Part shown: positions 19,710 through 37,796 of the stretch, one piece after another | Numbering within the stretch: position 1 is the first letter of the stretch | Layout: the number at the start of each line of letters is the position of its first letter | Source of the DNA: Burkholderia sp. Bp8992 | Lineage (GTDB): Bacteria; Pseudomonadota; Gammaproteobacteria; Burkholderiales; Burkholderiaceae | DNA: 38,072 bases | Assembly (NCBI RefSeq): GCF_003853705.1 | Contig: NZ_QTQI01000047.1 | Coordinates: 1 to 38,072, forward strand | Reading direction: 5' to 3' | Made by a program: the position numbers and the translations under genes | The notes under the pieces: model-generated | The model's database searches: none | What the model saw: the letters and a program-made list of their open reading frames with translations, nothing else | Told to the model about the DNA's origin: nothing

Positions 19710-20916
19710 TAACAAGAACAAAAACCTTAAACCCGGCTGGCTCCAGGTGAAGTTCGGCGACGTGGTGCGGCTCTCGAAGGCACGCAGCCAAGATCCGCTG
19801 GCCGATGGCTTTGAACGCTACGTTGGTCTGGAACACCTCGAACCAGGCGATTTGCGCATCCGCAGTTGGGGCAACGTTGCTGACGGCGTTACCTTCACCA
19901 GCGTGTTTCAACCTGGGCAGGTGTTATTCGGCAAGCGCCGCGCCTACCAACGCAAGGTGGCCGTGGCAGATTTCTCTGGCGTGTGTTCTGGTGACATCTA
20001 CGTGCTGGAGACCAAGGACGCGAAGGTCTTGCTACCGGAGTTGCTGCCATTCATTTGCCAGACCGATGCCTTCTTTGATCACGCAGTGGGCACATCTGCC
20101 GGCTCCTTGAGCCCGCGTACCAACTGGTCGAGCTTGGCGAATTTCGAGTTTGCACTGCCTCCGATAGATGGGCAGTTAGAGATAGTCAGCGCCATTGCCG
20201 CAATTGATGAGTGTTTCGAAGCCTGCACAACATTGCAAGTCAACGGAAGTACCGTGCTGCAGTCACTGCTCGATCGCATGTGGCGCACGTTTCCTAAGCA
20301 GAAGATTGGCGCTCTTATTGACCAAGGGCTGATTACTCCGCCTCAAGACGGCAATCATGGTGAGAAACACCCGAAGGCGGCTGACTATGTGCCCGAAGGC
20401 GTGCCGTTTGTGATGGCTTCAGATTTGAAGGGGGGGCAAGTTGACCTCACGGGGTGCAGCAAAATCCCCCATTCACTCGCCCGCACGCTGAGGATTGGCT
20501 TTGCCAGATCAGGCGATGTTCTTTTGAGCCACAAAGGAACAGTTGGAGAGGTCGCTAGACTGAGAGATTTGACGACGGATTTTGTCATGCTGTCCCCGCA
20601 GGTTACGTACTACCGAGTGATCAACGGAGCCAAACTCGAACCTGACTGGCTCTACTTCGCATTTCAAACGCCCGGATTTAAGCGCCTCCTTGAGCAGTAC
20701 GGAAAGCAGTCAACCAGGGCTTACGTGGGGATAACAACCCAGCGGGAACTTTCAATTCCGATTGCGCAGGTGCCAGACCAGCGGGAGGTGATTGCAGAAC
20801 TCGTCGCGGTAGAAGTAGCAATCGCAGGAGCAGCGGAACGTGCAGCCTCTGTAGCCAATATGCGGCAGCGTCTGCTTACTGAAGCGCTAGCTGGAGGTGA
20901 TCACAATGTTCACTGA
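19702..20916 (+). CDS. hsdS: type I restriction-modification specificity subunit HsdS
   Basis: 404 residues from GTG at 19702, preceded by GGAGG. HsdS recognises the two halves of the DNA target. The first target-recognition domain spans about residues 8-155 and includes FQPGQVLFGKRRAYQRK; a conserved helix follows (DGQLEIVSAIAAIDECFEAC). The second covers about 195-355 with IGFARSGDVLLSHKGTVGEV and again ends in a helix (DQREVIAELVAVEVAIAG). The second domain has visibly lower GC at third positions than the first, which suggests that it was exchanged separately. It overlaps hsdR by 11 bases. Confidence 0.93.
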   Translation: MSDNKNKNLKPGWLQVKFGDVVRLSKARSQDPLADGFERYVGLEHLEPGDLRIRSWGNVADGVTFTSVFQPGQVLFGKRRAYQRKVAVADFSGVCSGDIYVLETKDAKVLLPELLPFICQTDAFFDHAVGTSAGSLSPRTNWSSLANFEFALPPIDGQLEIVSAIAAIDECFEACTTLQVNGSTVLQSLLDRMWRTFPKQKIGALIDQGLITPPQDGNHGEKHPKAADYVPEGVPFVMASDLKGGQVDLTGCSKIPHSLARTLRIGFARSGDVLLSHKGTVGEVARLRDLTTDFVMLSPQVTYYRVINGAKLEPDWLYFAFQTPGFKRLLEQYGKQSTRAYVGITTQRELSIPIAQVPDQREVIAELVAVEVAIAGAAERAASVANMRQRLLTEALAGGDHNVH

Positions 20917-23887
20917 ATCCAACACCGTTGAAGCCTACGTCCGCGATCTGCTCGCAGGCCCTATGAAGGTCATCTCCGCCAACACGGTTCAGGAACTGCA
21001 AACCGGCTATGGCTTCAGTCCCAAAGGCATTGGCTGGCGCTACGCAGCGCCGGGTGAAGTGCCGCGCCAGATTCAGGAAGTGCTGGTTGAGCCCTGGCTG
21101 CGCGATGCGCTGATCCGCCTCAACCCCGAGATTGCCACTCAGGCCGACCGGGCTGACGAGGTGCTCTACAAGCTGCGCGCCATTGTCTTGTCGGTGCGCT
21201 CGGATGGCCTGATCCGCGCAAACGAGGAAATGACCGCCTGGATGCGCGGCGAGCGCTCGATGCCCTTCGGCCCCAACAACGAGCATGTGCCGGTGCGGCT
21301 GATCGACCTGGATGATCTGTCGCAGAACCAGTACATCGTCACCCAACAGTTCATCTACCGTGCCGGACCTACCGAGCGCCGCGCCGATCTGGTGCTGTTG
21401 GTCAACGGTTTGCCGCTGGTGCTGATCGAGGCCAAAACGCCGGTCAAGAAGTGCATTAGCTGGGTCGATGGCGCGGTGCAGGTGCGCGACGACTACGAAA
21501 AGTTTGTGCCGGAGCTCTTCGTCTGCAACGTGTTCTCAGTAGCCACCGAGGGCAAGGCCTACCACTATGGGTCCATCGGGCTGCCGGTCAAGGATTGGGG
21601 GCCGTGGCACCTGGACGGTGGCGATGCGCAGCACCACCCACTGAAGTCGCTCAAGCTGTCGGTCGAGAGCATGCTGCGGCCGCATGTGGTGCTGGACATC
21701 CTCGGCAGCTTCACCTTGTTCGCAACGGACAAGAAGAAGCGTCGTATCAAGATCATTTGCCGCTATCAGCAGTATGAGGCGGCCAACAAGATCGTCGAGC
21801 GCGTGCTGGCGGGCTATCCCAGAAAGGGTTTGATCTGGCACTTCCAGGGCTCGGGCAAGTCACTGCTGATGGTGTTCGCCGCGCAGAAGCTGCGCATGCA
21901 TGCCGGCCTGAAGAACCCCACCGTTCTGATCGTGGTGGACCGCATCGATCTCGATACGCAGATCACAGGCACCTTCACCGGGGCGGACATTCCCAATCTG
22001 GAAAAGGCCGACACGCGCGAAAAGCTACAGCAATTGCTGGCGCAGGATGTGCGCAAGATCATCATCACGACGATCTTCAAGTTCGGCGAGGTCACAGGCA
22101 GCCTGAACGACCGCAGCAACATCATCGCGCTGGTGGACGAAGCCCACCGCACCCAGGAAGGTGACCTGGGCCGCAAAATGCGCGAAGCCCTGCCCAAGGC
22201 GTTTCTGTTCGGCCTGACCGGCACGCCGATTAACCGCGCCGACCGTAACACCTTCTACGCCTTCGGTGCCGACGAAGACGAAAAGGGCTACATGAGCCGC
22301 TACGGCTTCGAAGAGTCGATCCGCGATGGCGCCACGCTGAAGCTGCACTTCGAGCCTCGGCTGATCGACCTGCACATCGACAAGGCCGCGCTGGACGCGG
22401 CCTACAAAGACCTGACCGGCGGCCTGTCGGATCTGGACAAGGATAACCTCGCCAAGACCGCCGCGAAGATGGCCGTGCTGGTCAAGACGCCCGAGCGCAT
22501 CCGCAAGGTGTGCGAGGACATCGTCGAGCATTTCCAGACCAAGGTGGAGCCTAACGGCTTCAAAGGTCAGATCGTCACGTTCGACCGGGAGTCCTGCCTG
22601 CTGTTCAAGACCGAACTGGACAAGCTGCTGCCACCGGAGGCCACCGACATCGTGATGTCGGTGCAGGCGTCCGACAAGAAAGAGCACCCTGAGTATGCCC
22701 CCTACGACCGCAGCCGCGATGAGGAAGAGCGATTGCTCGACCGCTTCCGCGACCCTACCGATCCGTTGAAACTGATCATCGTAACGGCCAAGCTGCTAAC
22801 CGGCTTCGACGCGCCCATCCTGCAGGCGATGTACTTGGACAAACCGTTGCGTGACCATACGTTGCTGCAGGCGATCTGCCGGGTGAACCGTACTTATTCC
22901 GAACAGAAGACGCACGGTCTAATCGTGGACTACTTGGGCATCTTCGACGACGTGGCCGCTGCGCTGGAATTCGACGACCAGAGCGTCAGGCAGGTGGTCA
23001 GCAACATTCAGGAGTTGAAGGACAGGCTACCCGAAGCGATTCAGAAATGCTTGAATTTCTTCCAGGGCTGCGATCGCACGCTGCAAGGCTACGAAGGCCT
23101 GATCGCGGCGCAACAGTGCTTGCCCAATAACGAGGTGCGCGACAACTTCGCAGCCGAATACAGCCTGCTCAACAAGATCTGGGAAGCGCTGTCACCTGAT
23201 ACGGTGCTGGGGCCCTTCGAGAAGGATTACAAGTGGCTATCGCAGGTGTACCAGTCGGTGCAGCCGTCCAGCGGCCATGGCAAGCTGATCTGGCATTCTC
23301 TCGGTGCCAAGACCATTGAGCTGATCCATCAGAACGTGCATGTGGATGCGGTACGAGATGACCTCGACACTCTGGTACTGGATGCCGACTTGCTTGAAGC
23401 GGTGCTTTCGAACCCCGACCCGAAGAAGTCCAAGGAGATCGAGATCAAGCTCAACCGAAGGTTGCGCAAGCACGCGGGTAACCCGAAGTTCAAGAAACTG
23501 TCGGAACGGCTCGACGCGCTGAAAGACCGTTTTGAGTCTGGACAGATCAACAGTGTCGAGTTTTTGAAGCAGTTGCTGGAGATCGCCAAGGAAACCCTGC
23601 AGGCCGAGAAGGAGGTCCCGCCTGAGGAAGACGAGGATCGCGGAAAGGCAGCACTGACCGAGCTTTTTAACGAAGCGAAGACTGCCGAGACGCCCATCAT
23701 GGTCGAGCGAGTGGTGGCAGACATCGACGAGATTGTGCGCCTGGTCCGCTTCCCCGGTTGGCAAGGAACGCAAGCCGGTGAGCGTGAGGTGAAGAAGGCG
23801 CTGCGCAAGGCCCTCTTCAAGTACAAGCTGCATGCGGATGAGGAACTGTTCGAGAAAGCCTACAACTACATCCGGCAGTATTACTGA
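20906..23887 (+). CDS. hsdR: type I restriction enzyme HsdR (nuclease and translocase)
   Basis: 993 residues from ATG at 20906, with the strong site GGAGGTG 6 bases upstream. HsdR adds ATP-driven DNA translocation and cleavage to the M2S core. The N-terminal nuclease has RADLVLLVNG and LVLIEAKTP, with Asp near 160 and the E-A-K at 175-177, the PD-(D/E)XK set. The SF2 motor has Walker A QGSGKS (from about 314), DEAH (411-414), LTGTP and a C-terminal lobe with VTAKLLTGFDAP and QAICRVNR. The C-terminal helical region docks to HsdM. The gene is intact. It is followed after 8 bases by the PHP-like gene fragment. Confidence 0.95.
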   Translation: MFTESNTVEAYVRDLLAGPMKVISANTVQELQTGYGFSPKGIGWRYAAPGEVPRQIQEVLVEPWLRDALIRLNPEIATQADRADEVLYKLRAIVLSVRSDGLIRANEEMTAWMRGERSMPFGPNNEHVPVRLIDLDDLSQNQYIVTQQFIYRAGPTERRADLVLLVNGLPLVLIEAKTPVKKCISWVDGAVQVRDDYEKFVPELFVCNVFSVATEGKAYHYGSIGLPVKDWGPWHLDGGDAQHHPLKSLKLSVESMLRPHVVLDILGSFTLFATDKKKRRIKIICRYQQYEAANKIVERVLAGYPRKGLIWHFQGSGKSLLMVFAAQKLRMHAGLKNPTVLIVVDRIDLDTQITGTFTGADIPNLEKADTREKLQQLLAQDVRKIIITTIFKFGEVTGSLNDRSNIIALVDEAHRTQEGDLGRKMREALPKAFLFGLTGTPINRADRNTFYAFGADEDEKGYMSRYGFEESIRDGATLKLHFEPRLIDLHIDKAALDAAYKDLTGGLSDLDKDNLAKTAAKMAVLVKTPERIRKVCEDIVEHFQTKVEPNGFKGQIVTFDRESCLLFKTELDKLLPPEATDIVMSVQASDKKEHPEYAPYDRSRDEEERLLDRFRDPTDPLKLIIVTAKLLTGFDAPILQAMYLDKPLRDHTLLQAICRVNRTYSEQKTHGLIVDYLGIFDDVAAALEFDDQSVRQVVSNIQELKDRLPEAIQKCLNFFQGCDRTLQGYEGLIAAQQCLPNNEVRDNFAAEYSLLNKIWEALSPDTVLGPFEKDYKWLSQVYQSVQPSSGHGKLIWHSLGAKTIELIHQNVHVDAVRDDLDTLVLDADLLEAVLSNPDPKKSKEIEIKLNRRLRKHAGNPKFKKLSERLDALKDRFESGQINSVEFLKQLLEIAKETLQAEKEVPPEEDEDRGKAALTELFNEAKTAETPIMVERVVADIDEIVRLVRFPGWQGTQAGEREVKKALRKALFKYKLHADEELFEKAYNYIRQYY

Positions 23888-24586: not shown

Positions 24587-26713
24587 GTGTCGCACACGCT
24601 CACAGCAAAAGAACAAACGCTGCAGAAGATTTTCAGCGATGAATATGTGTTTACGATTCCAGGCTATCAGCGTCCCTATTCTTGGGGAAACGACCAAGCG
24701 CAGGAACTCCTTGATGACTTGCTGAGTGCGCTCGAAGTCTCCCCAGAACAGCTCGGGGATTGTGTGCCGTACTTTCTTGGCAGCATCGTCCTCATAAAGA
24801 GTGAAACTTCACCAGACGCGACAGTTGTGGATGGGCAGCAGCGCTTGACCACGCTGACGCTGCTTCTTTCAGCCATCAGAGCCACAATCAGCGACTGTGC
24901 GGTGCAGGCAGGCATCACGAAACGTATCTACGAGCACGGCGATGTCGTCTCGGCCACCGAAGCGAGCTACCGGCTGTCGTTGCGCGAGCGAGACAGAGAT
25001 TTTTTCCGTCAGTACATCCAACACGAGGACGGCCTCGCCAAACTCATTGAGCTGAACTCGACTCTGCCGACTAGCGCGCAGGAGCGCTTGCGGTCCAATG
25101 CCAAGGTCTTCATGAGCGGCCTGTCGAAGTTGCAGGAGGTTGAACTCAAGAGACTGGTCCAGTTCATAATCACGCGTTGCTACCTCGTTACCGTGGCAAC
25201 ACCGGACCTTGATTCTGCGTATCGCATTTTTGGTGTTCTTAATAGCCGCGGTCTCGATTTGAGTGCCACGGATATTTTGAAAGCAGAAATCATCGGGGGC
25301 ATTGAACCCGTTCTGCGAGAGATGTACACGAAAAAGTGGGAAGATGCAGAGGAGGACCTAGGGCGCGACGAGTTCGGCGACTTATTCAGCCATATCCGCA
25401 TGGTGTACCGCAAAGCCAAGCCGCAGGGGACATTGCTGAAGGAATTCAAGGAGCATGTTACACAGACAGCCGAATCACAGACGCTTGTCGACTCTGTTCT
25501 TCTACCGATGGCGAGAGCTTTCGCTGCTCTCACCGATGCTGATTACGCCAGCACAATGCATGCGGAGTTAGTGAACGAGCATCTGCGTTGGCTTAACAAG
25601 CTGGAATTCAAGGACTGGTTGCCACCGGCCTTGGCCTTTTACGTTCGGCATTCCGAGCATCCGGACTTGATGCTGACTTTCTTCCGCGACCTCGAACGCC
25701 TTGCATATTCGATGCTCGCGCGAAAAATTGGGGTCAATGGCCGTATCGAACGCTTCTCGGCGTTAACGGGCGCCATCGAAAATGGCCAGAATCTGTTCGC
25801 CGAGGCATCACCGCTGCAACTTTCCCCGAGTGAGCAATTCGACGCCTATTCGGTGCTGAACGGCCCGCTGTATGACACACACTCTGCACGTGCCGTAGCA
25901 CTATTGCTCTTACGCCTGGACCGTCTTTTGTCCGATGGCGCGGCGGTGTACGAACATGAGGTCGTCTCGGTCGAACATGTGATGCCCCAACAGCCCGCGC
26001 CGAATGGCCAATGGGCGATGTGGGTTCCCGATGCGAAAATCTATCAAAGCTGGGTCCATCGGCTTGGCAACCTCGTGCTACTGAGCCGCAAGAAGAATAG
26101 CTCCGCGAGCAACCGAGAGTTTTCCTGGAAGAAGAATTCCTATTTCACCAAAGGCGGTGTTTCCGGGTTCGCTCTTACAACGCAAGTGCTGCAGCATTCG
26201 GAGTGGACCGTGGACATCATGCAGGCGCAGCAGGCTTCGATGATGCAGGTGTTCGAGACGCACTGGCGTCTGGAGGAGCGCAAGAGCAAATCGGAAATTG
26301 CGAAGGAATTGCTTGGCGAACTGTCATCGGATAGCGATGGCATCTACTTCGAGCTGGAAAGCGCCAAGCACGGCCTTGCCGCAGTGGCGCGGAAAAGTAG
26401 CAGCGCGTTCACGATTCTTGCGCAGTCGCAAGCGCGATTGGACTGGACAGGACAACCACATTCATATCAGCAGTTACGAGAAAGTTTGCGGACGTTTGGT
26501 TCTCTACAGCTGTCCGCGGACGGCTCTCATCTGGTTTTCACGCAGGATGTGAACTTCGTCAGCCCCAGCGCCGCGTCCGCTACCGTCTTGGGCAGAACGG
26601 ACAACGGGCGGAATTCGTGGCGCCTCAAAGGAACGACGATTACCTATGCCGCATGGCAGGACAATTTGCCGGCCGACAAGTCGCCGAGCGAGACCGAAGG
26701 CGATGACCGGTAA
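24587..26713 (+). CDS. GmrSD-like DUF262/DUF1524 nuclease with DUF4357-like tail
   Basis: 708 residues from GTG at 24587. The N-terminal DUF262 domain shows IPGYQRPYSWG (24-34) and DGQQRLTTLTLLL (82-94), the nucleotide-handling ParB-like site. A DUF1524 domain follows with VEHVMPQQ (His464) and HRLGNLVLLSRKKNSSASN (His491, Asn495), the His-Me finger nuclease. This fusion matches GmrSD-type IV restriction enzymes, which cut modified phage DNA. The last 80 residues contain VNFVSPSAASATVLGRTDNGRNSW (given here in part by its first and last residues only in spirit): a DUF4357-like module with SPSAA and GRTDNGR. It stands alone, converging with zorD 125 bases away. Confidence 0.85.
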   Translation: MSHTLTAKEQTLQKIFSDEYVFTIPGYQRPYSWGNDQAQELLDDLLSALEVSPEQLGDCVPYFLGSIVLIKSETSPDATVVDGQQRLTTLTLLLSAIRATISDCAVQAGITKRIYEHGDVVSATEASYRLSLRERDRDFFRQYIQHEDGLAKLIELNSTLPTSAQERLRSNAKVFMSGLSKLQEVELKRLVQFIITRCYLVTVATPDLDSAYRIFGVLNSRGLDLSATDILKAEIIGGIEPVLREMYTKKWEDAEEDLGRDEFGDLFSHIRMVYRKAKPQGTLLKEFKEHVTQTAESQTLVDSVLLPMARAFAALTDADYASTMHAELVNEHLRWLNKLEFKDWLPPALAFYVRHSEHPDLMLTFFRDLERLAYSMLARKIGVNGRIERFSALTGAIENGQNLFAEASPLQLSPSEQFDAYSVLNGPLYDTHSARAVALLLLRLDRLLSDGAAVYEHEVVSVEHVMPQQPAPNGQWAMWVPDAKIYQSWVHRLGNLVLLSRKKNSSASNREFSWKKNSYFTKGGVSGFALTTQVLQHSEWTVDIMQAQQASMMQVFETHWRLEERKSKSEIAKELLGELSSDSDGIYFELESAKHGLAAVARKSSSAFTILAQSQARLDWTGQPHSYQQLRESLRTFGSLQLSADGSHLVFTQDVNFVSPSAASATVLGRTDNGRNSWRLKGTTITYAAWQDNLPADKSPSETEGDDR

Positions 26714-26838: not shown

Positions 26839-29800
26839 TCAAACATCCGCCGATTGCCATTCGGCAAAGAGCATCCGCTCGACCTCGAGCATGGTTGTTT
26901 CATGCGCTTGAAGCAGGTCGCCGAGATGCTTCTGGTCAACCAACTCGACAGAGTTCAAATGCGCGTTTTCGTTCGCCTGCGCATTGAAGAACTGATTTGT
27001 GACACAGACTTTTTCGAACGACACATTGGGGTGCCTACGTCGGTAGAACGCTTCGCCAGCCACAACCTCTTTCACAGCGTCCCATCCGAGTTTTGTTCCA
27101 TCAATTCCGCTGGACTTGGCCTGAATAAGCTGACCTCGATTTCCGTCAATGGCCACAATGTCGACGCCGTTGTCATTCGTGCCCGGTGTCCGGTAGCAGT
27201 TATACCCACGCTTGCTCCAAAGTGCACCTACAAGGCACTCGAAGTGTTGCCACCCCATACGCTGTGCCATATCCAGCGTGATGCGTTCATCCAGGCCGTC
27301 ACTCTGCGAGTGCGGCACCACGTCCGTGAGGTTAAAGTCGGACGGCACCACGTCTCCGGCGCCGTTGAGCATGTCCTCTGACAACCCTCTCTTATGAGCT
27401 AGCAACTGGTCGAGCTTGACGTCGAAAGTCATAAAGTCGTCAGCCCAAACAGTTGGGTAATACACGTACACAGGCTTCGTCTGATTGATGCGGTACGCAC
27501 GGTCGGTGGCCTGGTCTTCTTTGGCCGGATTCCATGTGCGCGAGTAATGGATAACGTGGTTCGCCGCCTGGATGTTTACGCCGAACCCGACGGCGACCGG
27601 CGAAAGAACAAGGACACCGAAGCCCGGCGTGTCTTGAAAGGCCTTGATTCTCTTTTGCCGACTGGCGACGTGACTCGAGGACGCACTTGTATCACCGTTA
27701 ATGATGTCGGGACGATACCCGAATTCGGCTTCGATGTAATGCTGCAGGAGTCGCTGAATCTCCCGGAACTCGCAAAAGACGATTGCCTTCTCGCCCTTCG
27801 CTCTGATTTCCGAGAGCTGCCCGAGTAGCCAATTGAGCTTCGGGGATTTCGCACGATAGTCGCCCAATGGTTCCGGCTTGAACACGCTTAGACCGTGCAC
27901 TCGTGGGTCAGCACATACCAGCCTTAGGTAGTGTAGCAACCCGAGGTGATTCTTGAACGGCGTCGTATGGTTGGGCTCCTGGCGCCGTTTGAATCCATCC
28001 ACCGCCTTCGCGTAAAGGTTCCGCTGAACGCCAGAAATTGAGAGCCGCCGGCAATCTTCGACAACGATTTTCGGAGGTAGCCCCGTATCGACCTCAGTCT
28101 TCAGGCGCCGGAGAATCTGGGGCGAGATGCGAGCGCGCAATTCTTCGACACGAGCTTTTTCTTCGTCAGTCTTCGCCTCAATCGGCTTCCGGTACCGCTC
28201 ACCAAAGTCGTTCAAGGCACCGAGCAAGCCCGGTTGCACATAGTCGAAGAGACACCACATATCGGCCAAGGTGTTCTCCACCGGCGTCCCGGTGCATGCA
28301 ATCCTGAACGCGACATTCTGCTTCTTGGCGGCCCGGGTCACCATTGCAGCTGGGTTCTTGATGCGCTGCGCCTCGTCGCACACCATCAAGGACCACTTTT
28401 GTGCCGCAAACGAAAACTCCAAGTCTCGCAATGTCTCGTATGTCGTCAAAACCACCTTGGCATCGCCAATCCAGTTGGGCTTCAAAAACTTGACCAGGCC
28501 ATCCTCGGTCTGCAAGCGTTGGTCTATCTGGCTGCGCGGTACGCGAAACGCGGCAAGACTTTCGCCGTATGCAGTCAATAGGGGCAATGCTCCAGGCTGA
28601 AAGAACTTGTTAGCTTCCTCTGCCCAGTTTTCCAGCAGTGAGACCGGCGCGACTACGAGCATTGGATTGATGATGGGGTCCCTCTCCAGCAACCAGGCCA
28701 TAAGCGCCAGCAATTGGAAGGTCTTACCCAGCCCCATGTCGTCTGCAAGGATTGCGCCGCGAACCTGGTAATCGGTTTGCAGACTGAAGAGATGCTGCAT
28801 CCACGCGAGACCCGCTTGTTGATGCGGCAACAATGAGAACTCCGGGCGAATGCTTTCCGGAAGCTTCGGACGAGCAGGTACGGCCTGCAGCGCTTCACGA
28901 CGCAACTCTTCGTATTCGAGTGCCTGAATGTTTGCACGCAGAACTAGCTGCTTTTTGGCCACGCTTTCGCTGGGCCGGTTGCGCGCGTTTTCCGGGTCAA
29001 ACTGCTTACCCGACTCCAAATCTGAAAAGACGCTCTCGAACGTCGAGATGATTTCTTTCGCATCAGTCAGCGAAATGGGGTCCTTGAGCCAAGGGACGTC
29101 GAGCTGAACCACGCCTTTCGCGTCAGCGACCTGTACATCATCCTTCAGCTTCTCAATAGCAAGCTTGTTGGTCGGCACGGCCACCGGCTCGCCACCGTCC
29201 TTCGACTGATAAACAATGACAGGCAGAATGTTGTCAGGAAACCAACCTTCACCCTCGTCCTTCTTCGCGATATACGGCGAATGGTAGGGCTTCTCCACAC
29301 CAATCGATTCGATGCGCGCAGAGTAGCCAGCCAGGTTGTGGACCTGAGCGTAGGAGACCAGCGTCGGAGGAATGCGACGCTGTGCCAGTGCAGCCGACAA
29401 TTCTTTGAGTTGCTGCTCCGAATCTCCCTGCAGAGCAAGGTCATAGCCCTGCCAGGCAAGCAGTTGGTGGCCCTGCGCCAGCGACCTGGAGAGAGCCAAG
29501 ATGAACGCGGAAAGTTCGTTGTCGTCGAGCCAATGCGTCTTCGAGGAGGTCGGTCCGCTCGCCACTGCAGATTCGATAAGCAGGCCGATACGTACTGGAT
29601 AGCCCGCAGCATTTCGCTCGAACGTCGGTACGAAGCGTTCGTAGTCGAGGCCGGCGTCTTCACGAGCACGTTCGAATTGTGATTCTTCGATGACGTCAAT
29701 CGCATCTGCACCGAGTGCCGCGAAGGGGTTGAGCAAAAAAGCTTGGGCCCGAGAACCTGCCACCCGCCGTCCGGGCAACCGCCTTATTTCACGAAGCACG

Positions 29801-30591
29801 GTCTTCACCTTCGGTGTGACTAGAACCTGGACGATTCCCTCCTGCGTTGTAATGTCGTACCGGTCGCGAACTTCTCGTGCTCTGTCGAACGTGTCGAGCC
29901 AGTCATCAGGTGCTCCGTCGAAGCTCGGCACGATTTCGACTACGTGGTCGTCTACAACTGCCACCGAGCGCCGCAGACCTATAGTGAGCTTTTCCGGACT
30001 CAAAACCACCGAGCGGTAGAGAAAATCATCAAGTCTTGCTTCGGCATCGACTGCGAGCTTGCGAATCCGCCCCCACCCTTGCCGGTTGGCTAAATCAGAG
30101 TGGTCCTCGTCGCCACGGCGCGAGAATGCAATGACCGCATTAAAAAGCTTCCATTGCGCGGGACGCATCAGCATCTCTGCGGCGCCTTCTAACATCACGG
30201 GCCCCGTGATAGTGCCTTGAAATTCACGGCCGCCGTCGATGCGCCATCCATCTATCGCAATAGAGAACTCGTGGTCGGTCAACGAATGGTTGCTTCGCAG
30301 ATGCTGACGGAATTCCGTGAAAGGCGGTATTCGGAGTACATCGCGCAGCTGCCCGTAGTCCGGTCGTTCAAGGATGTCGTATAAAGACTGCCAATCCAAC
30401 AAGAACTCGTCCTCGACCGGGCTGACGAGGCCATCATCGGTCAGTTGTGTGAGGTAGCCGCCAACGAGGTCTCCATCGACCATCGCTCCCGTGCTTTGAG
30501 TTCGCCGAGTTAGAACGATGCCCTTATCCGACCAGTGTCGCTTCCAGGTGATGACGTCTCGCGCTTTTGCTTGCTTGAATAATTTGAACAC
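26839..30591 (-). CDS. zorD: Zorya ZorD: SNF2-type helicase with C-terminal Mrr-like nuclease domain
   Basis: 1250 residues from GTG at 30591 (AAGG site upstream). ZorD is the DNA-degrading effector of type I Zorya. The first 580 residues are a family-specific region. The SNF2 motor has QQAGLAWM, Walker A DDMGLGKT (617-624), DEAQ (739-742), CTGTPVEN and, in the second lobe, GVNIQAANHVIHYSRTWNPA with QATDRAYRINQ. After a linker, residues 1105-1215 form an Mrr-like PD-(D/E)XK domain: MGWQHFECLVGALWSKRGY, NGVDIVAI (Asp1144) and QAK (1157-1159). All catalytic residues seem present. It is the last gene of zorABCD, 9 bases after zorC. Confidence 0.93.
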   Translation of the reverse strand: MFKLFKQAKARDVITWKRHWSDKGIVLTRRTQSTGAMVDGDLVGGYLTQLTDDGLVSPVEDEFLLDWQSLYDILERPDYGQLRDVLRIPPFTEFRQHLRSNHSLTDHEFSIAIDGWRIDGGREFQGTITGPVMLEGAAEMLMRPAQWKLFNAVIAFSRRGDEDHSDLANRQGWGRIRKLAVDAEARLDDFLYRSVVLSPEKLTIGLRRSVAVVDDHVVEIVPSFDGAPDDWLDTFDRAREVRDRYDITTQEGIVQVLVTPKVKTVLREIRRLPGRRVAGSRAQAFLLNPFAALGADAIDVIEESQFERAREDAGLDYERFVPTFERNAAGYPVRIGLLIESAVASGPTSSKTHWLDDNELSAFILALSRSLAQGHQLLAWQGYDLALQGDSEQQLKELSAALAQRRIPPTLVSYAQVHNLAGYSARIESIGVEKPYHSPYIAKKDEGEGWFPDNILPVIVYQSKDGGEPVAVPTNKLAIEKLKDDVQVADAKGVVQLDVPWLKDPISLTDAKEIISTFESVFSDLESGKQFDPENARNRPSESVAKKQLVLRANIQALEYEELRREALQAVPARPKLPESIRPEFSLLPHQQAGLAWMQHLFSLQTDYQVRGAILADDMGLGKTFQLLALMAWLLERDPIINPMLVVAPVSLLENWAEEANKFFQPGALPLLTAYGESLAAFRVPRSQIDQRLQTEDGLVKFLKPNWIGDAKVVLTTYETLRDLEFSFAAQKWSLMVCDEAQRIKNPAAMVTRAAKKQNVAFRIACTGTPVENTLADMWCLFDYVQPGLLGALNDFGERYRKPIEAKTDEEKARVEELRARISPQILRRLKTEVDTGLPPKIVVEDCRRLSISGVQRNLYAKAVDGFKRRQEPNHTTPFKNHLGLLHYLRLVCADPRVHGLSVFKPEPLGDYRAKSPKLNWLLGQLSEIRAKGEKAIVFCEFREIQRLLQHYIEAEFGYRPDIINGDTSASSSHVASRQKRIKAFQDTPGFGVLVLSPVAVGFGVNIQAANHVIHYSRTWNPAKEDQATDRAYRINQTKPVYVYYPTVWADDFMTFDVKLDQLLAHKRGLSEDMLNGAGDVVPSDFNLTDVVPHSQSDGLDERITLDMAQRMGWQHFECLVGALWSKRGYNCYRTPGTNDNGVDIVAIDGNRGQLIQAKSSGIDGTKLGWDAVKEVVAGEAFYRRRHPNVSFEKVCVTNQFFNAQANENAHLNSVELVDQKHLGDLLQAHETTMLEVERMLFAEWQSADV

Positions 30592-30600
30592 GGTTTCGCC

Positions 30601-32295
30601 TTATTTCCACCAACCCTTGCCCGGCTTCACACGGAAGCCCCATTCCATCAAAACGCGGCCGATACGCTCGTCACCTTCACCACCGCGCACCCACAAGTTT
30701 CCGCCGAGTGCAGTCCTGTCCTCGATTTGCAGACCATGCGTTGCCGCAAATCGCTTGAGCGCAACGTGGGAGTAGGATTCGTGCGCTTCGGTTCGATTTT
30801 GCGAAGAGCCAACGTTCTCACGGGAGGAGACGTTACTCGTCGACTTCGTAGGCTCGTTTGCGGCCTTGGTTCTACCTGAAGCACGCAAAGTTTCGGCTGA
30901 AGGAAGAATCTGAAAACTCTCACGCAGTGTTGCCTCGAACATCTCCTCCCATCGATTCCAGCCATGAATGCCGTCACCATGCTTTAGCCACAGCATGCTT
31001 TTTGATTGCTTCAACGAATTGCGTTCATTTTTCCCGAGCTTCAATGTCTGATTTGTATTGAATGGCAGAGAGCGACTGGCGTCATAGCCATAAAACGCGT
31101 TTCCGAGACCACTAAATTCGACAGCGACCAACTTGCCCATCGTCATAATGAAGGCGTTGTTCGCGCCAGAGGCGTCGAGTTCGCGAGTCAGGCCCTTCAT
31201 TCTCTTACGCAGCGCGACCAGGTCAGGTTCACGTGAATTGCGCGCAGTCGAGCCTAATGCGAACTCGATGTCATCGATGGATTTAACGTATCGCTTCCAA
31301 AACTCCATTCGCCGACGGTCGGCAAGACCGTCCTCCGCCAACTTCGTAAAGAAGGTCTCGATAAATTCGAGCTTCAACCAGTCAGAGACCATTGCTCGAG
31401 CCGCAGGCTCGACGCCACCCCATCGGGTCGCATTTGAAGGTAGCCACGGATTGCCCCACCAGGCGACAGCATGGTCGCGCAGTCTCGGGTGCAAGGGGGT
31501 GCCAGAGACCTCAGCGTATCGGTCAAGGACCAGAATCGTTCCTCGGTCGCGGAGCACCTCATTGTGTGCAAGCAGACCAAGCAAGCGGGGTAGCAACCTC
31601 ACAAACTCATCGTCATCGAGCTTCGTCGCGCCCTCAACTTGCGTAAGCACGAGCTGGCGCAGAAACCACGACTCCTTTCCGATTTGAAGTTGCTCGCAAA
31701 TGTGGTCTATGCGCGACGTATCGCCTTCGAGCAACTCGCCCACATATCGTGTGCACGGGGACTCATCAAAAAGCTGTCTGTTTTCGATTGCCGTGTCGAC
31801 CCATGAAGGGTTCGACCTGCTATCACGTATCTTGGGGTTCCGGTCGTGAAGGTAGTCTCGCAGGGTCAGCCAGTTCTTCCTTCCCGAGGACGCCACCCCA
31901 CATGCATCTACGTCGAAGGAGAAGTAGCTCTTTGCGAGTCCTTGATAGCAGCGCCTGTATGACGCGGTCTTGGTTATGTAGCCATCAACGCTGTCCAGGA
32001 TATGCTGCAAGCGTGGTCGGTCCTCCATCACGCACTCGCCTTGGGGACGGTGTGGAATACATAGGCCAAAGGACAGAAGATAGGCATCGCGGAACGTGGA
32101 CACTTCGTGGCTCTGCCAATACCGTCGCACCGCGTCGAGCTGATGGTCATGAACAGGTTCTCGGCCAACACGAGATTTCGCGCGCGCTTTCAACTGTTCG
32201 AGAAGCACGTCGATTTCAGTGCCCGGGCTAATCGGCTGCGTCTCTTCGCTGACCGACGATTGCAGCAAAGACGCCAGGTAGTTTAGTGCGCTCAT
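30601..32295 (-). CDS. zorC: Zorya ZorC (EH_signature protein)
   Basis: 564 residues, starting four bases inside the end of zorB (ATGA overlap at 32292-32295). In type I Zorya, ZorC is a cytosolic, DNA-binding partner required for defence. Visible are a helical middle part with RTILVLDRYAEVS and WWGNPWLPS, then a conserved-looking block HGDGIHGWNRWEEMFEA. The C-terminal 110 residues begin with a Ser/Thr-rich linker and end in a small basic domain (RFAATHGLQIEDRTALGG, LWVRGGE). No catalytic motif is seen. Assignment rests on position, size and neighbours more than on motifs. Confidence 0.85.
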   Translation of the reverse strand: MSALNYLASLLQSSVSEETQPISPGTEIDVLLEQLKARAKSRVGREPVHDHQLDAVRRYWQSHEVSTFRDAYLLSFGLCIPHRPQGECVMEDRPRLQHILDSVDGYITKTASYRRCYQGLAKSYFSFDVDACGVASSGRKNWLTLRDYLHDRNPKIRDSRSNPSWVDTAIENRQLFDESPCTRYVGELLEGDTSRIDHICEQLQIGKESWFLRQLVLTQVEGATKLDDDEFVRLLPRLLGLLAHNEVLRDRGTILVLDRYAEVSGTPLHPRLRDHAVAWWGNPWLPSNATRWGGVEPAARAMVSDWLKLEFIETFFTKLAEDGLADRRRMEFWKRYVKSIDDIEFALGSTARNSREPDLVALRKRMKGLTRELDASGANNAFIMTMGKLVAVEFSGLGNAFYGYDASRSLPFNTNQTLKLGKNERNSLKQSKSMLWLKHGDGIHGWNRWEEMFEATLRESFQILPSAETLRASGRTKAANEPTKSTSNVSSRENVGSSQNRTEAHESYSHVALKRFAATHGLQIEDRTALGGNLWVRGGEGDERIGRVLMEWGFRVKPGKGWWK

Positions 32296-33002
32296 CGCAA
32301 TGCACAGTCGCCAAAGTTCCCCGATTGCGCCGGGGCCGGAGACCTATCCTCGCCAACACCTAGGAACTCAAGGCGCATCTCGACGCGGCGACTTTCCTCG
32401 TCGGTTTCCTTCGAGTCATTGAACGAATATCCGCCGACCAAAAACAGATTTCGCACGTCCAGCTTTTGCGCCTCGTCGAGCACACTCGCACCAGTCGTTG
32501 CAAACATACTGCACAACACCCGCTCGCTGCGCTGGAGACTCAGATCCAGGTTGCTCAGGTACGTGCCGGTTCTGTCTGTATAGCCTTCGACAACCACACG
32601 CTTCAGTACGCGCTTGCCCAGGTCATCGTTCGCCAATGTCAGGATTTCAGGAACGAACTGACGCAACACCGCTTCCTGCTCGGGCGCCAGGTTTGATTTC
32701 CCGAACGCAAAACGGGCGCGGTCACCAAAATCGATGACATGTCGGTTGCGGTCTATCTTGATACCGTCGTACCGCTTGGCGGCACTTTGAAACCGGTCGA
32801 GAATAAGCTCTATGTCCTTTCGATGCTGCTCTTCGCGCTTTTCTTTCTCCGTCACGTTCTTGGTCACGGCGAGCAGCGCCACCCCCATGACCACGAGGAA
32901 GAGCACCATCAGTGCGGTCATCAAGTCAGCAAAGGAAATCCAGAAGGGCTTTTCCGCCTCGTCGCGACTTCCGCGCTTGACGACGATTTGAGTTCCAAAC
33001 AT
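32292..33002 (-). CDS. zorB: Zorya ZorB (MotB/OmpA-like stator subunit)
   Basis: 236 residues. ZorB forms the inner dimer of the ZorA5B2-type ion-driven motor and anchors it to peptidoglycan. The N-terminal membrane helix is FWISFADLMTALMVLFLVVM with the ion-binding Asp26. A coiled segment (EKEKREEQHRKDIELILDRF) precedes the OmpA-like domain with FAFGKSNLAPEQEAVLRQF, VVEGYTDRTG and LSLQRSERVL. The OmpA motif suggests a working peptidoglycan anchor. It starts 3 bases after zorA and overlaps zorC. Confidence 0.95.
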   Translation of the reverse strand: MFGTQIVVKRGSRDEAEKPFWISFADLMTALMVLFLVVMGVALLAVTKNVTEKEKREEQHRKDIELILDRFQSAAKRYDGIKIDRNRHVIDFGDRARFAFGKSNLAPEQEAVLRQFVPEILTLANDDLGKRVLKRVVVEGYTDRTGTYLSNLDLSLQRSERVLCSMFATTGASVLDEAQKLDVRNLFLVGGYSFNDSKETDEESRRVEMRLEFLGVGEDRSPAPAQSGNFGDCALR

Positions 33003-33005
33003 CGT

Positions 33006-35030
33006 CTAGTTCCTCGCTGGTGTCAGGGTGCTCATGGAGGCGAGCGTTACCTCCAGCTCACCGACTGCAGACGAAAGCAACCCTACTGCCGAGGTCAGTT
33101 TTGTATGGAACTCGGCATTCGCTTTTTCCAACGTACGCTTGACCTCAGTTGCAAAAGCGCCGTGCGCTTCAGCGAGAACCTGGCTTACACCAGCGAGATA
33201 CTCGTCCGCCTGCTTTTGCGCCGCTCCAAGATGGCTTGTGGATGTCTCAATGCGATTGAGAATGTCACCGGTCAACGCAGCTTCCCTTCTCGCAGCATCG
33301 ACGGTGGCGCGCAATTCCGTAACAAGCTGGCCGATGCTATCGCGATGAGCGCGGTAGTCGCTCAGCAGTTCCTGGATTGCTCCCGCACCGCTCGTCAAAT
33401 TCCCGGCTGTCGCTGCGAGTTTGGTTGAGACGTCGGTGGTTTGCCCCATGACACCGGCGACGCGCTCACCTGCCGCGGCGAAGTTCCGCGACGCCGTGCC
33501 CAACGCTTCCGCGCCAGCATTCATGCGGTCGACAGAAGAAGTTGTCGACTGCGTCAAAGCATTCACGCTTTGCGCCATCTGCGTAGTTGCGGCGCCTAGC
33601 TCCTTGACAAGAGCATCCATCGATTCCGACATCGCGTTCACTACGCCGCTCGCGCGCTCAGACATCGCATGCTCGCGTGCACGATTGTTCTCAAATACTT
33701 CCTTCTGCGCGCCGCTCAGCGTCGTTAGCATTTCGCCAACGTGAGTGCTGAGCGTCTCCAACGTCGCCTGCAATTTTTGGTTTGTCTCCGACTGAGACGT
33801 TGCAACCAACTGGCGTAGCTGCTCAACGAACGCCTCCGATTGCACGTTCATTGCATCCTGTCGCGCCTCCATCTTTTCAATGGCCTCCGCCATGCGGTGC
33901 GCCATCGCATCCGTCGAACGCTGACTCGAAGCCTCGATGTTCTCGACCAGAGTGTGCAACGTGCTCACAGCCTGCTGAATGCTCTGGGCCGTTTGTTGAT
34001 TAAGCTCGGTGAGGCCTGAAATTTGGCCACCGAACAAGTCATTCAACCGTTGGCTGAAGCTCGTCATTACGTCCTGCAATACCCGAGCAGCACTTGCACT
34101 CTGGTCACCGCTGGCGGTTTTAACGGTCGCCGCGATTTCATCGAGTGGGCCTTTGAGGCCCTGTTGGATGCTCTCGGCAATCACCTGTCCGAGAGCGACG
34201 TTGTTCTGGCGTCCCGCCTCTGCGGTGAGTGCATATTGTTCTTTGCTCGCCTCGATTTGTGCACTAGTCAACTCGCGCAGCAGCTCACCCATCTCCTTGA
34301 CGAGAGCGTCCTTCAAAATTTTAGATTGGCTCGCCGACTCCTCTGACGCTTTTACTAGACGTGCCAGGTATTCTTCTCCGGCACCTGCCTCAAAGGAAGC
34401 ATCAATCGCATGTGCAATTTCTTCCGTACGTCGGTACAGCGAGGCAAGGAGAAATTTTTCGAAGAGCGTGGTTAGCATTGCCGCGGCGATTGCCGAGGCA
34501 GACACAAGAAACGCCTCACCCACCGAATGCATAAGTGATTCAAGACTACCGCGAACAGTTGCAGCGTTCTCGCTTACCTGAAACGCGTGAAGACCTTCTA
34601 TGAGTCCGCTGAACGTCCCGATAATGCCAATACCAGTAAAAATTCCGGGAACGTGCTTAAAAAACTCAGTGCGCAAGCGGCTGTCGACGACAACCTGATT
34701 GTTGAAGTACACCTCAGCTGGCACGGTGGCACGTACAGCGCGCACGATCATTTGTCCATCCCGCTCTTCCCGCTGGACGTGCAATGATTCGGCATACTCG
34801 TTCCAGAGATGGGTGAGCCGACGGTCGCTCGCGAAGACCGCCTCAAACTGCGACGAGAAGTCTCCGCTTTCAAAGCTTCCGATGCGTCGCTGGATGGCGC
34901 GCAGCCGAAGCAGGTGACTTATCGCTGGACCGAAGAAAAACACAACAGCAATAACGACAAGGAGGGCCAAAAACACGCCCGTGATAAGTGCAGGCATCGG
35001 CACGCCGGCAAGCAATGATTGGATGTTCAA
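33006..35030 (-). CDS. zorA: Zorya ZorA (MotA/ExbB/TolQ-like stator with long tail)
   Basis: 674 residues from the TTG at 35030, which has GGGGAGA six bases upstream; the frame continues to 35147 but the extra 39 residues look non-coding. ZorA makes the pentameric motor ring. Membrane segments are at about 13-35, 129-148 (PGIFTGIGIIGTFSGLIEGL) and 170-191 (GEAFLVSASAIAAAMLTTLF), the MotA/ExbB core. After residue 200 comes a coiled-coil tail of about 470 residues with heptad-like Ala/Gln/Glu repeats, which in Zorya forms the long cytoplasmic tail that carries the signal to ZorC/ZorD. First gene of zorABCD. Confidence 0.93.
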   Translation of the reverse strand: MNIQSLLAGVPMPALITGVFLALLVVIAVVFFFGPAISHLLRLRAIQRRIGSFESGDFSSQFEAVFASDRRLTHLWNEYAESLHVQREERDGQMIVRAVRATVPAEVYFNNQVVVDSRLRTEFFKHVPGIFTGIGIIGTFSGLIEGLHAFQVSENAATVRGSLESLMHSVGEAFLVSASAIAAAMLTTLFEKFLLASLYRRTEEIAHAIDASFEAGAGEEYLARLVKASEESASQSKILKDALVKEMGELLRELTSAQIEASKEQYALTAEAGRQNNVALGQVIAESIQQGLKGPLDEIAATVKTASGDQSASAARVLQDVMTSFSQRLNDLFGGQISGLTELNQQTAQSIQQAVSTLHTLVENIEASSQRSTDAMAHRMAEAIEKMEARQDAMNVQSEAFVEQLRQLVATSQSETNQKLQATLETLSTHVGEMLTTLSGAQKEVFENNRAREHAMSERASGVVNAMSESMDALVKELGAATTQMAQSVNALTQSTTSSVDRMNAGAEALGTASRNFAAAGERVAGVMGQTTDVSTKLAATAGNLTSGAGAIQELLSDYRAHRDSIGQLVTELRATVDAARREAALTGDILNRIETSTSHLGAAQKQADEYLAGVSQVLAEAHGAFATEVKRTLEKANAEFHTKLTSAVGLLSSAVGELEVTLASMSTLTPARN

Positions 35031-35183
35031 TTTCGGTCTCCCCGGCAAAGGGTTTGTTTTCTTATGGCAGCCTAGGCATGCCGCAACGCACTGCTGACGT
35101 TCAACTGACAGGCGCCTCGTCACGCTCCGACGGGCTGTCGCGTCCATGCGGCTAATATTACGGCATATTCCCCTTGAGGATTA
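35031..35183. promoter_or_regulatory. divergent promoter region between zorA and the nuclease-like gene
   Basis: This stretch must hold the start signals for zorABCD (leftward) and for 35184-37204 (rightward). On the minus strand TTGCGG, 16 bases, TAAGAA (around 35060-35090) is a weak -35/-10 candidate. On the plus strand an A/T-rich patch TAATATTACGGCATATTCC (about 35154-35172) could supply a -10. No operator-like repeat is evident. Confidence 0.35.
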
Positions 35184-35399
35184 ATGGGAAAGACTCGAAT
35201 CCGGAAGCTCGAACAGACGAATGATTGGGTTACTACCTTACGACGTTCGGCACCTACCCGACCCGCACAAATGTCGACGTCGCCTAGTCGGTCCCGATCA
35301 GAGCGTGCGCGACAACAAGTGGACAGTGTTAACGACTTCTGGCAGACGAAGTGCTCTGCTCGAACGCGATCGACTTACGCAAACAACGACAAAATATGA
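35184..35399 (+). CDS. possible small basic protein coupled to the downstream gene
   Basis: 71 codons from ATG at 35184 with GAGGA upstream. The stop overlaps the ATG of the next gene (ATGA at 35396-35399), the usual sign of translational coupling. The product is basic and Ser/Arg/Thr-rich, with no recognised domain, and composition does not strongly argue for coding. It may be a real small partner, a leader peptide, or chance. Confidence 0.3.
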   Translation: MGKTRIRKLEQTNDWVTTLRRSAPTRPAQMSTSPSRSRSERARQQVDSVNDFWQTKCSARTRSTYANNDKI

Positions 35400-37204
35400 A
35401 TGATGGCCTGCCCGCCGACGATGCGGCACCGTCTCACTGGCTTGAGCACCTGTCCGAAGGTCTGGAGGGTCTCACTACCGATGCCCGCCGCACGGCGTAT
35501 TCACTCTTACATTCGCCATGGAAATGTCCGCGTGATGACGTACTCAAATACGTGCCGTCGCCGCTGGGCGATTCAATCGCTTTCTTGCAAAAGAGCGTCT
35601 TACGACATGTCTTTCGGAAGCGGACCCGCCGGGGTCTGGGCACAGCGGTTCTCGATGTAGGAATTGGTGCATTCACACAAGGCCCCAACGGCTCTCGCGA
35701 GGCAATGGGACCCAATACCGTCATCGCGGTCGAAGCACTCCTTGGACTGGCCAAGGAAGACCTGGCAAAGGCGAACATTCAATGGAGTGAATTATCCGGA
35801 CAGGCTCAAGCCTCACTTCTAGCACTCTATGCCCAATGTGAGGTTGCTGTGCACTTGATGGCAGGTATGTTCGAAGCCGTCAGTAATACTGGCGGTGTCA
35901 TGCATTACGCCATTCCTGCTCGGTTACATATCGCGCGCAAGATGCGTTGGTTTTCACTGTACTGGGCACAGCAGAGCAACATGGCAGACGCCCACAATGC
36001 GCTGATGGTGTCACGCGGCCTTCGCCACTTCGACGGGCCGGCAAGAGAGGATGAGTTCTTTCAAGCTTGGGTCGATTCCATCCTTGATAAATTTCTATGC
36101 CTGCACCGGCGCTACGTCCCCAAACTCCTGCTGACAAAAAACGGCGCTGCGGTACCGAAGCTACGGGCTCGCGCTGAACTTCTGTGCTTTGTCTGGTTGC
36201 ATCCCCTTGCGGCTCGGTGGGACATTGATAACTTCTCGCACGTCGTTTTGGAAGACCGTCCACTGGCTTCAATCTCGCGCGAGCAATTGCAGCAAGCAGG
36301 GTTCGGCAATGTCGAACTAGAGGCCCTATTGGCTGAATCAGCCGCGCAGCCTCCCGGCGATCGGTTTATTACTCAAGCGGACGACCCACGGCACCTGTAC
36401 ATCCACAATTTAAACTTAAAATTTTCGGTGCAACGCTACGTGCAGTCACAGTTCAGCGAAATTGGCTCGCCCATCGGAAAATGGTTCGAGCGTGACTACA
36501 TTCTCCAATATATCCAGGACCGACTTGATAGTTCGCGCTTTATGGCGTGGTTCGAATTCAAAGACATGGATGCCAAGTACGATGTGGACATCATTATCTA
36601 CGACAAAACGACGTGCCTTTTTTACTTCTGCCAAGTCAAACACCGAGCCCAAGTGCTTCAACCGTATTTGCGTGACGAACTCGACGAGTTCAACCGAAGC
36701 AAAAACATAAACCATGGGATCGGGCAACTCAGCCGCCTGCGTGAATTGATAGACACAGAGCAGGTCCGCAAACGTCTCGTAAGTAAGCTTGGGAAAAAGT
36801 TGGTAGGCTCCGGATTGTTGAGCGAGCGAAGTCGCTTCCTTCTTGTGCACACCATTGAAAATTTCGACATGTGCACACGACGCGGAATAACTATGTACGA
36901 GTGGAATACATTTCGAAACCTCCTTCAGGGCCAGATGTTGTTCTCGCGGCGCGACCTCGATGGTGTCACGCAATACGGAACGGAAGAGCTGGACTTCTCA
37001 AGGCTCACAGCAGTTCAACAACATCTGCTGCGGGTTACAGCTCGCTTGTCTAGGGAGATGGCTCCAGGCCAGCCAACACCTGAGGACACGTATGAAGTCC
37101 TGCAGCATGCGGAACTCACTCTTCAGTATCGGAAGTCGTTTTGGCTGAACGACAAATCTATCGGTAAATTGAGAGCCAGAATGTTGCGAACGCCGCTGCT
37201 ATAG
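35396..37204 (+). CDS. unknown 602-residue protein with PD-(D/E)XK-like nuclease motifs
   Basis: 602 residues from ATG at 35396; a GTG at 35351 would add 15. No known family is recognised. The N-terminal 330 residues are mostly helical, with HLSEGLEGLTTDARRTAYSL and a Trp-rich segment MRWFSLYWAQQ. Around residues 360-420 lies GKWFERDYILQYIQDRL (Glu365), then YDVDIIIYD (Asp396, Asp398) and FCQVKHR (Gln413, Lys415). The spacing E...D-x-D...Q-x-K fits PD-(D/E)XK nucleases of the Mrr/NERD kind. A helical C-terminal part follows (to YRKSFWLNDKSIGK). It is back to back with zorA and has similar, lower GC. I infer a defence nuclease; the function is untested. Confidence 0.7.
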   Translation: MNDGLPADDAAPSHWLEHLSEGLEGLTTDARRTAYSLLHSPWKCPRDDVLKYVPSPLGDSIAFLQKSVLRHVFRKRTRRGLGTAVLDVGIGAFTQGPNGSREAMGPNTVIAVEALLGLAKEDLAKANIQWSELSGQAQASLLALYAQCEVAVHLMAGMFEAVSNTGGVMHYAIPARLHIARKMRWFSLYWAQQSNMADAHNALMVSRGLRHFDGPAREDEFFQAWVDSILDKFLCLHRRYVPKLLLTKNGAAVPKLRARAELLCFVWLHPLAARWDIDNFSHVVLEDRPLASISREQLQQAGFGNVELEALLAESAAQPPGDRFITQADDPRHLYIHNLNLKFSVQRYVQSQFSEIGSPIGKWFERDYILQYIQDRLDSSRFMAWFEFKDMDAKYDVDIIIYDKTTCLFYFCQVKHRAQVLQPYLRDELDEFNRSKNINHGIGQLSRLRELIDTEQVRKRLVSKLGKKLVGSGLLSERSRFLLVHTIENFDMCTRRGITMYEWNTFRNLLQGQMLFSRRDLDGVTQYGTEELDFSRLTAVQQHLLRVTARLSREMAPGQPTPEDTYEVLQHAELTLQYRKSFWLNDKSIGKLRARMLRTPLL

Positions 37205-37477
37205 GTGGATTTTGCCGATTACTGTTCCGTAGAGTATTGTCTATCGCTTTGTCAGGTGTCGATTAGAGAATCCGAACTGATTTGCTACTGATCGAGGGAA
37301 ATGGTTGCAATGATGGACTCAAATCTGCGCCCGACGACGTACGAGCATGACGGGGAACATCCGACCGGAAGCGCGCGCAATGGATCGCGACACCTCCATA
37401 CCTCTGCCGATCGGCTATCACTCGAATTTTCCATATTTCGAGATGCCCAGTTAGGTAGACTCAAATGGCGTCACCGC
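37205..37477. other. spacer upstream of symE
   Basis: About 270 bases without a convincing gene. A frame of 85 codons from 37301 has no recognisable features and runs over the symE start. The symE promoter should be here, but no strong -35/-10 pair stands out. Confidence 0.35.
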
Positions 37478-37518
37478 AAAAAGCGCGGGCCGCATGGGCT
37501 GCCACCCATACGACCCGC
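37478..37518 (-). terminator. intrinsic terminator of the candidate SymR
   Basis: Read on the minus strand: GCGGG, inner stem ATGGG/CCCAT, CCCGC, then GC and TTTTT. The same DNA is a stem in the symE 5' leader when read on the plus strand. Confidence 0.55.
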
Positions 37519-37557
37519 TGACCACCACCAACTCAATACAGGAGTCGGAAATGGCTA
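37478..37557 (-). ncRNA. symR: candidate antisense RNA SymR
   Basis: On the minus strand a TATGAT -10 element (37564-37569) lies just inside symE. A transcript starting near 37557 would cross the symE start codon and ribosome-binding site and end at a hairpin (GCGGG/CCCGC with inner ATGGG/CCCAT, 37485-37518) followed by five T (37482-37478). The length of about 80 nt and the geometry match E. coli SymR (77 nt), which blocks symE translation. The -35 is weak (TTCCGT-like). Existence is inferred. Confidence 0.55.
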
Positions 37558-37796
37558 ACGCCAATCATAAGTCACGTCCCTCGGTAACGGAACGCTTCGT
37601 CACCGTCCAAGAGTCAGCACGCCATCATTCCTTGTCCAGGGTCCTCCGTGCTATCAGAGCGCACCGGAAACTGAACACGACGTATTACCCGTGGATCAAA
37701 TTGGCTGGAGTATGGCTTGAGGACGCGGGATTCGAGGCAGGAGAACGCGTCCGGATTACCGTCGAGGACAAGCGACTCATCATCACGCCGATGTGA
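37551..37796 (+). CDS. symE: SymE-family type I toxin
   Basis: 81 residues from ATG at 37551, with GGAG 7 bases upstream. SymE-type proteins are SOS-linked toxins of E. coli that condense or damage nucleic acid and are held down by the antisense RNA SymR. The family core is visible: the middle has TTYYPWIKLAGVWLEDAGF and the end GERVRITVEDKRLIITPM, an AbrB-like swapped beta-hairpin. The N-terminal 30 residues are basic and variable. A LexA box is not evident. SymE genes are common in defence islands next to type I restriction systems, as here. Confidence 0.85.
   Translation: MANANHKSRPSVTERFVTVQESARHHSLSRVLRAIRAHRKLNTTYYPWIKLAGVWLEDAGFEAGERVRITVEDKRLIITPM

Follow-up and report, generated by a model that had tools for sequence, protein, structure and literature searches.

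A predicted PD-(D/E)XK nuclease gene beside a Burkholderia Zorya operon is probably a portable defence part

A stretch of 38,072 nucleotides from Burkholderia sp. Bp8992 (contig NZ_QTQI01000047.1, positions 1 to 38,072; the whole of it is called the window here) carries, next to a Zorya defence operon, a gene for a 602-residue protein. We consider it rather probable that its product is a PD-(D/E)XK nuclease from an unnamed family whose genes travel singly and settle within or next to other antiviral loci. The gene is probably a portable component of defence rather than a member of the Zorya system. If this is right, it belongs to a family of defence nucleases that goes unrecognised by the libraries used (Pfam and NCBIfam, with a weak listing in PADLOC). 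Its closest relative is found in Paraburkholderia bryophila (locus L001; other relatives are numbered likewise), and the features of the gene are as follows.

35365..37211, no strand: block homologous to L001 (80% identical, blastn), made up of the gene, 31 bp upstream and 7 bp past the stop codon
35396..37204, plus strand: family gene, 602-residue predicted PD-(D/E)XK nuclease (open reading frame call, codon-position differences from L001, relatives)
36401..37201, plus strand: C-terminal part, residues 336-602, folded alone, with the nuclease core at about 364-510 (AlphaFold2, VIA-align)
36488..36490, plus strand: Glu365 codon (alignment; E in 9/14, D in 5/14)
36581..36589, plus strand: Asp396-x-Asp398 codons (alignment; both Asp 14/14)
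36632..36640, plus strand: Gln413-x-Lys415 codons (alignment; Gln and Lys 14/14)
36896..36919, plus strand: YEWNTFRN motif, residues 501-508 (alignment; Y, E, W, N and R507 14/14)

The longest open reading frame (ORF) spans 35351..37204 on the plus strand and would yield 617 residues from a GTG start, whereas the ATG at 35396 gives 602. The product is 78% identical to that of L001 across all 602 residues, and the two genes align without a gap over 602 codons, with 93 differences at first, 55 at second and 209 at third codon positions. This bias towards third positions is the signature of a protein under selection, and the ungapped alignment with a relative at 78%, together with a motif kept in all 14 members compared, raises both gene and motif above chance. 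The protein has no match at E<=1 in Pfam, NCBIfam or PHROGs, and its lone PADLOC listing is a weak NERD model (E=0.012, residues 377-461). The preliminary description, made from the letters of the window, was thus right in proposing a real 602-residue product of no recognised family.

The nuclease reading is supported by a conserved motif and by a predicted fold. In the PD-(D/E)XK superfamily an acidic residue lies on helix 1, an aspartate on strand 2 and a (D/E/Q)-x-K pair on strand 3. The alignment comprised 14 intact members (the window protein, L001-L006, L017-L020, L031, L032 and L038) with pairwise identity down to 15%; the copies in L039 and L048, which are cut before the motif region, were excluded. 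Asp396, Asp398, Gln413 and Lys415 are identical in all 14, and position 365 is E in nine and D in five, so that the motif is present in every member. The residues H485, Y501, E502, W503, N504 and R507 are likewise invariant. L047 (93% identical to L038), which is also intact and brings the members to fifteen, shares the E, D-x-D, Q-x-K and YEWN stretches. The AlphaFold2 models have an overall pLDDT (predicted local distance difference test) score of 74.6 and 74.7, with values of 82-95 (ten-residue means) for the core elements of the domain model. They contain the expected helix-strand-strand-strand-helix-strand core, with D398 on strand 2, Q413-x-K415 on strand 3 and residue 365 just before helix 1. 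Structural matches of the predicted domain (VIA-align) include Upx, EndoMS and Holliday-junction resolvase folds. All five residues named in the preliminary description occur where it had placed them, and its PD-(D/E)XK proposal withstood the checks on the predicted fold and on motif retention among homologues. The C-terminal half would form the catalytic core, with E/D365 at the first helix, D398 on strand 2 and Q413-x-K415 on strand 3, and the predicted enzyme would most likely be a Mg2+-dependent DNA cutter. The N-terminal half, which is modelled as mostly helical and matches no family, would probably carry sensing or self-restraint.

The unit that moves appears to be the gene itself. When the whole 38 kb window was compared with ten loci by blastn, only L001 matched, at 35365-37211 and at 37245-37323. 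The longer match spans just the gene and short edges, so that the shared unit is one gene and the block 35365..37211 is the apparent portable unit. The second match is a 79-bp stretch, 85% identical to L001:14198-14275, that follows the gene in both loci; its copy in L001 lies about 2.4 kb further on, past a Fic gene, as if cargo were placed between the gene and a shared flank.

The family is rare and patchy in distribution. A short exact peptide scan of 84,980 species genomes, which detects close relatives only, found six. Profile searches covered 1,994 whole genomes in all, repeats included, in overlapping samples whose counts include the centre genome and truncated copies. Around G001 the gene was present in 1/398 (family), 1/144 (genus) and 1/398 (phylum), the single carrier in the family and phylum samples being the centre genome itself. 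Around G002 the figures were 1/369 (class) and 1/3 (genus), and two further genus samples gave 4/62 (G005) and 2/40 (G003). Other samples yielded 4/198 (relatives of G927), 3/197 (order of G006) and 4/178 (relatives of G1539). No relatives were found in 72,556 plasmids (five members as queries) or in 50,697 phage records (two members as queries), and three scans of viral contigs gave none either.

Several relatives occupy places within operons, namely those of type I restriction, type I-C CRISPR and umuDC. In Cardiobacterium hominis (L002) cas5c, cas8c, cas7 and cas4 are followed 20 bp on by the family gene, then by cas1c, an ORF resembling cas2 and an array of some ten CRISPR repeats; NCBIfam models above their cut-offs type this operon as I-C. 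The same type I-C operon in Nitratidesulfovibrio has cas4 overlapping cas1c. A Neisseria gonorrhoeae record (L050) matches L002 to the end of cas4 (89%) and resumes just before cas1 (87%), and between them has two other ORFs of 119 and 207 residues without a Pfam match over cut-off. The cargo of the cas4-cas1 junction is therefore different in the two organisms.

L002:9960-11792: family gene
L050:5592-6869: two ORFs

This difference makes the junction look like a slot for exchangeable cargo. The Neisseria locus itself looks decayed, with cas8c split and cas1 short.

In L038 and L047 the order is hsdR, hsdM, hsdS and the family gene, whose ATG directly follows the hsdS stop (0 bp). HsdR of L038 scores above its NCBIfam cut-off, and HsdM (E 1.9e-14) and the specificity subunit (E 5e-141) under theirs; the restriction genes of L047 were named by identity to those of L038. 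The same hsd operon in L039 and L048 carries a truncated family copy 3 bp after hsdS (L039:7580-8239 and L048:9091-9948). These copies end after residues 213 and 272, with the motif and nuclease part gone and hsdRMS open. The L048 genome gives four equal-score matches on four contigs, perhaps an assembly artefact. Across the four operons HsdR and HsdM are 96-98% identical and HsdS only 48-76%, and the two intact family genes are 92.6% identical. That the family gene stays 0 or 3 bp behind hsdS although HsdS has diverged points to a link with the restriction operon in these genomes. Truncated copies beside open restriction genes fit a costly, losable nuclease, and simple decay fits as well. A type I restriction operon thus houses L038, L047 and, in truncated form, L039 and L048, and not the window gene itself.

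Surroundings are more varied across the family as a whole. Among the 15 intact members, five (window, L001, L002, L038 and L047) are embedded among or adjacent to recognised defence genes and three (L005, L031 and L032) near transposition genes. L018, L019 and L020, a distant subfamily with 15-20% identity to other members, stand beside ordinary genes (an HTH/M78 gene, UbiD/NusB and a kinase gene) and no recognisable defence loci. L003, L006 and L017 were assigned to neither the defence nor the transposition class, and the contig of L004 (3.5 kb) is too short to judge. Homologues lying mainly outside defence islands would have refuted the preliminary description, and on this point the outcome is mixed. 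The link to defence is drawn from the operonic cases and is not a statistic. In a tree of the 15 members, the five in defence contexts form one clade (95/94) spanning Burkholderiaceae, Cardiobacteriaceae and other genomes; the long branch of L006 is of unsure placement, and five rows, including L002, L038 and L047, differ in letter make-up from the rest.

Individual loci add detail. L001 has a HEC-05-like gene directly upstream, the Fic gene downstream, Sir2 about 11.5 kb away, and a UvrD-type helicase scoring with GajB plus a PDDEXK_1 protein, for which an AddAB-like pair is equally possible. The gene of L031, taken as its longest ORF, follows the umuC of a umuDC pair at a distance of 2 bp, and TnsD/TniQ is some 6 kb off; L032 has TnsA-like, Mu-type transposase, TniB and TniQ genes within about 7 kb; and L005 is preceded by IS110 and rve transposases and followed by an AAA protein. 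In L006, from a Colwellia metagenome-assembled genome, a WYL regulator is accompanied by two large proteins without Pfam or PADLOC matches; these genes, for 1496 and 678 residues (L006:2241-8767), lie downstream of the regulator gene and directly upstream of the family member and may form an unnamed defence operon. Shortly downstream of the L017 member, L017:11111-13717 encodes an 868-residue protein that contains a SEC-C motif and matches NERD below threshold (E 0.0012).

The genes around the family gene in the window are the following.

33006..35147, minus strand: zorA of a type I Zorya, divergent neighbour, not counted in the unit (PADLOC ZorA1, E 1.7e-262)
26839..33002, minus strand: zorD, zorC and zorB (Pfam/PADLOC matches)
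37494..37796, plus strand: SymE-like gene, downstream, not counted in the unit (PF08845, E 6.5e-14)

The Zorya operon (26839-35147, minus strand) is a complete type I system in which zorA, zorB, zorC and zorD each match a type I PADLOC model; ZorC also matches the NCBIfam ZorC model at E 8e-52, under the cut-off of that model. The gap between zorA and the ATG of the family gene is 248 bp when zorA is given its longest ORF, and about 400 bp if zorA starts near 34997, which is probably its true start because the PADLOC match begins at residue 41. Further left the same island includes a GmrSD-type restriction gene (24587-26713), whose product is fused to DUF4357, and on that side there is also an HsdR of type I (20897-23887). 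The divergent orientation and the place between Zorya and SymE were described correctly from the outset, as was the low guanine-plus-cytosine content common to the gene (53.1%) and the four zor genes (55-56%), compared with 62-66% for three genes from the window's first 16 kb.

That adjacency to zorA, with its divergent arrangement and similar composition, is what favours an accessory effector of Zorya recruited by ZorAB, one of two roles offered in the preliminary description. We now regard it as very unlikely. By tblastn of the window ZorA-D, zorA, zorB and zorC are absent from 49 loci of 16 other genomes, many of them overlapping and mostly with flanks of <=10 kb per side, so that a zor locus elsewhere in the same genomes is possible. 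The only ZorD matches there fall in a helicase-like region of L024, although the same queries readily find all four genes in a Polaromonas plasmid locus (L051). Within the stretches examined Zorya accompanies the gene only in the window; the nearest relative, L001, lies in another island. Among the plasmids, 24 have a zorC relative, 20 of them from Klebsiella (the matches listed for these are all at about 25% identity), and none of the 24 has the family gene, including L051, the one inspected. The window ZorD moreover joins an SNF2 helicase to a C-terminal Mrr_cat nuclease domain (PF04471, E 1.3e-12), so that the operon already has a nuclease; a passage of PMC11890865 reports this ending for ZorD in general. 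In L051 the Zorya I operon is preceded, at a distance of about 0.9 kb, by a gene for a Y-family DNA polymerase (L051:3848-5068); in L031 the family gene stands behind umuDC.

The other role first offered, a separate one-gene defence, fits better than the Zorya accessory, and some relatives are in addition part of another defence's operon. As a stand-alone, restriction-type system, the N-terminal half would recognise phage DNA or protein, the C-terminal half would cut, and operons would be safe landing sites only. We treat this as a possibility short of a preference. The single-gene block shared with L001, the differing operon partners of relatives, the strand opposite to the Zorya genes and the other cargo in the Neisseria junction all speak for it, and the position 0 or 3 bp after hsdS in four close operons (two intact, two truncated), despite HsdS at 48-76%, speaks against it. 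It is the strongest rival to a coupled defence. Quite improbable, in our judgement, is that the protein is a nuclease serving DNA repair or recombination, or a toxin with no part in antiviral defence, and is tied to mobile elements by chance. The umuDC neighbour of L031, the transposition genes near L031, L032 and L005, the ordinary neighbours of L018-L020 and the EndoMS and Holliday-junction resolvase folds would suit such a function, but the rare, patchy occurrence (a lone carrier, the centre genome, in the family and again in the phylum of G001) and the embedding in cas and hsd operons would not.

A portable antiviral nuclease would act as an added or back-up effector under the control of its N-terminal half or of a partner. 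It would lie dormant in healthy cells until infection, or a breakdown of the accompanying defence, sets it off. Such triggering would have a precedent by analogy in PrrC with the type I restriction enzyme. A more specific form of this idea, which we put forward tentatively and with some doubt, is a portable guard nuclease: one family would plug into no fewer than three unrelated antiviral machines, namely type I restriction, type I-C CRISPR and a Zorya island, as well as into an SOS polymerase operon. Its silence would be imposed by these partners, or by the cell being undamaged, and would end when phage disarms them, which would make it a DNA-cutting counterpart of PrrC without a fixed partner. 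A passage of PMC3506569 proposes coupling of the PrrC kind for restriction-modification, DND and CRISPR-Cas loci. If true, one family in several immune operons would provide a direct test of the immunity-suicide coupling put forward in that passage across defence types, and a single protein family could be tried against several defence partners.

Among known systems, Upx (PDB 9wuf), counted among immune systems in a passage of PMC12629846, matches the predicted domain by structure only, with 7% identity in the aligned part and a chain of 1212 residues versus 602. When PDB sequences were searched with profiles at E<=10, the full-length protein gave no chain and the domain only NucC (E 0.54), so that Upx was not listed. 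The window protein has no PADLOC match at E<=1 to the nuclease domains of McrC, Shedu SduA or Hachiman HamA, and no McrB-like GTPase or HamB-like helicase was recognised beside the gene (Pfam, PADLOC). The NERD listing is the exception: the viperin-associated NERD nuclease (PDLC02906) matches weakly, at 12.6 bits and E=0.012, over positions 414-490 of a 542-position profile. Identity with the PrrC/RloC anticodon nucleases, which combine an ABC-ATPase with an anticodon nuclease domain, was rejected, as no Pfam family matches at E<=1. PrrC is an ATPase-containing tRNA nuclease, whereas the core predicted for the present family is of the PD-(D/E)XK type, without any match to an ATPase. According to PMC2610378, PrrC sits in a type I restriction operon and stays silent until phage disarms restriction, and it is in this lodging of a nuclease gene within a type I restriction operon that L038 and L047 resemble it.
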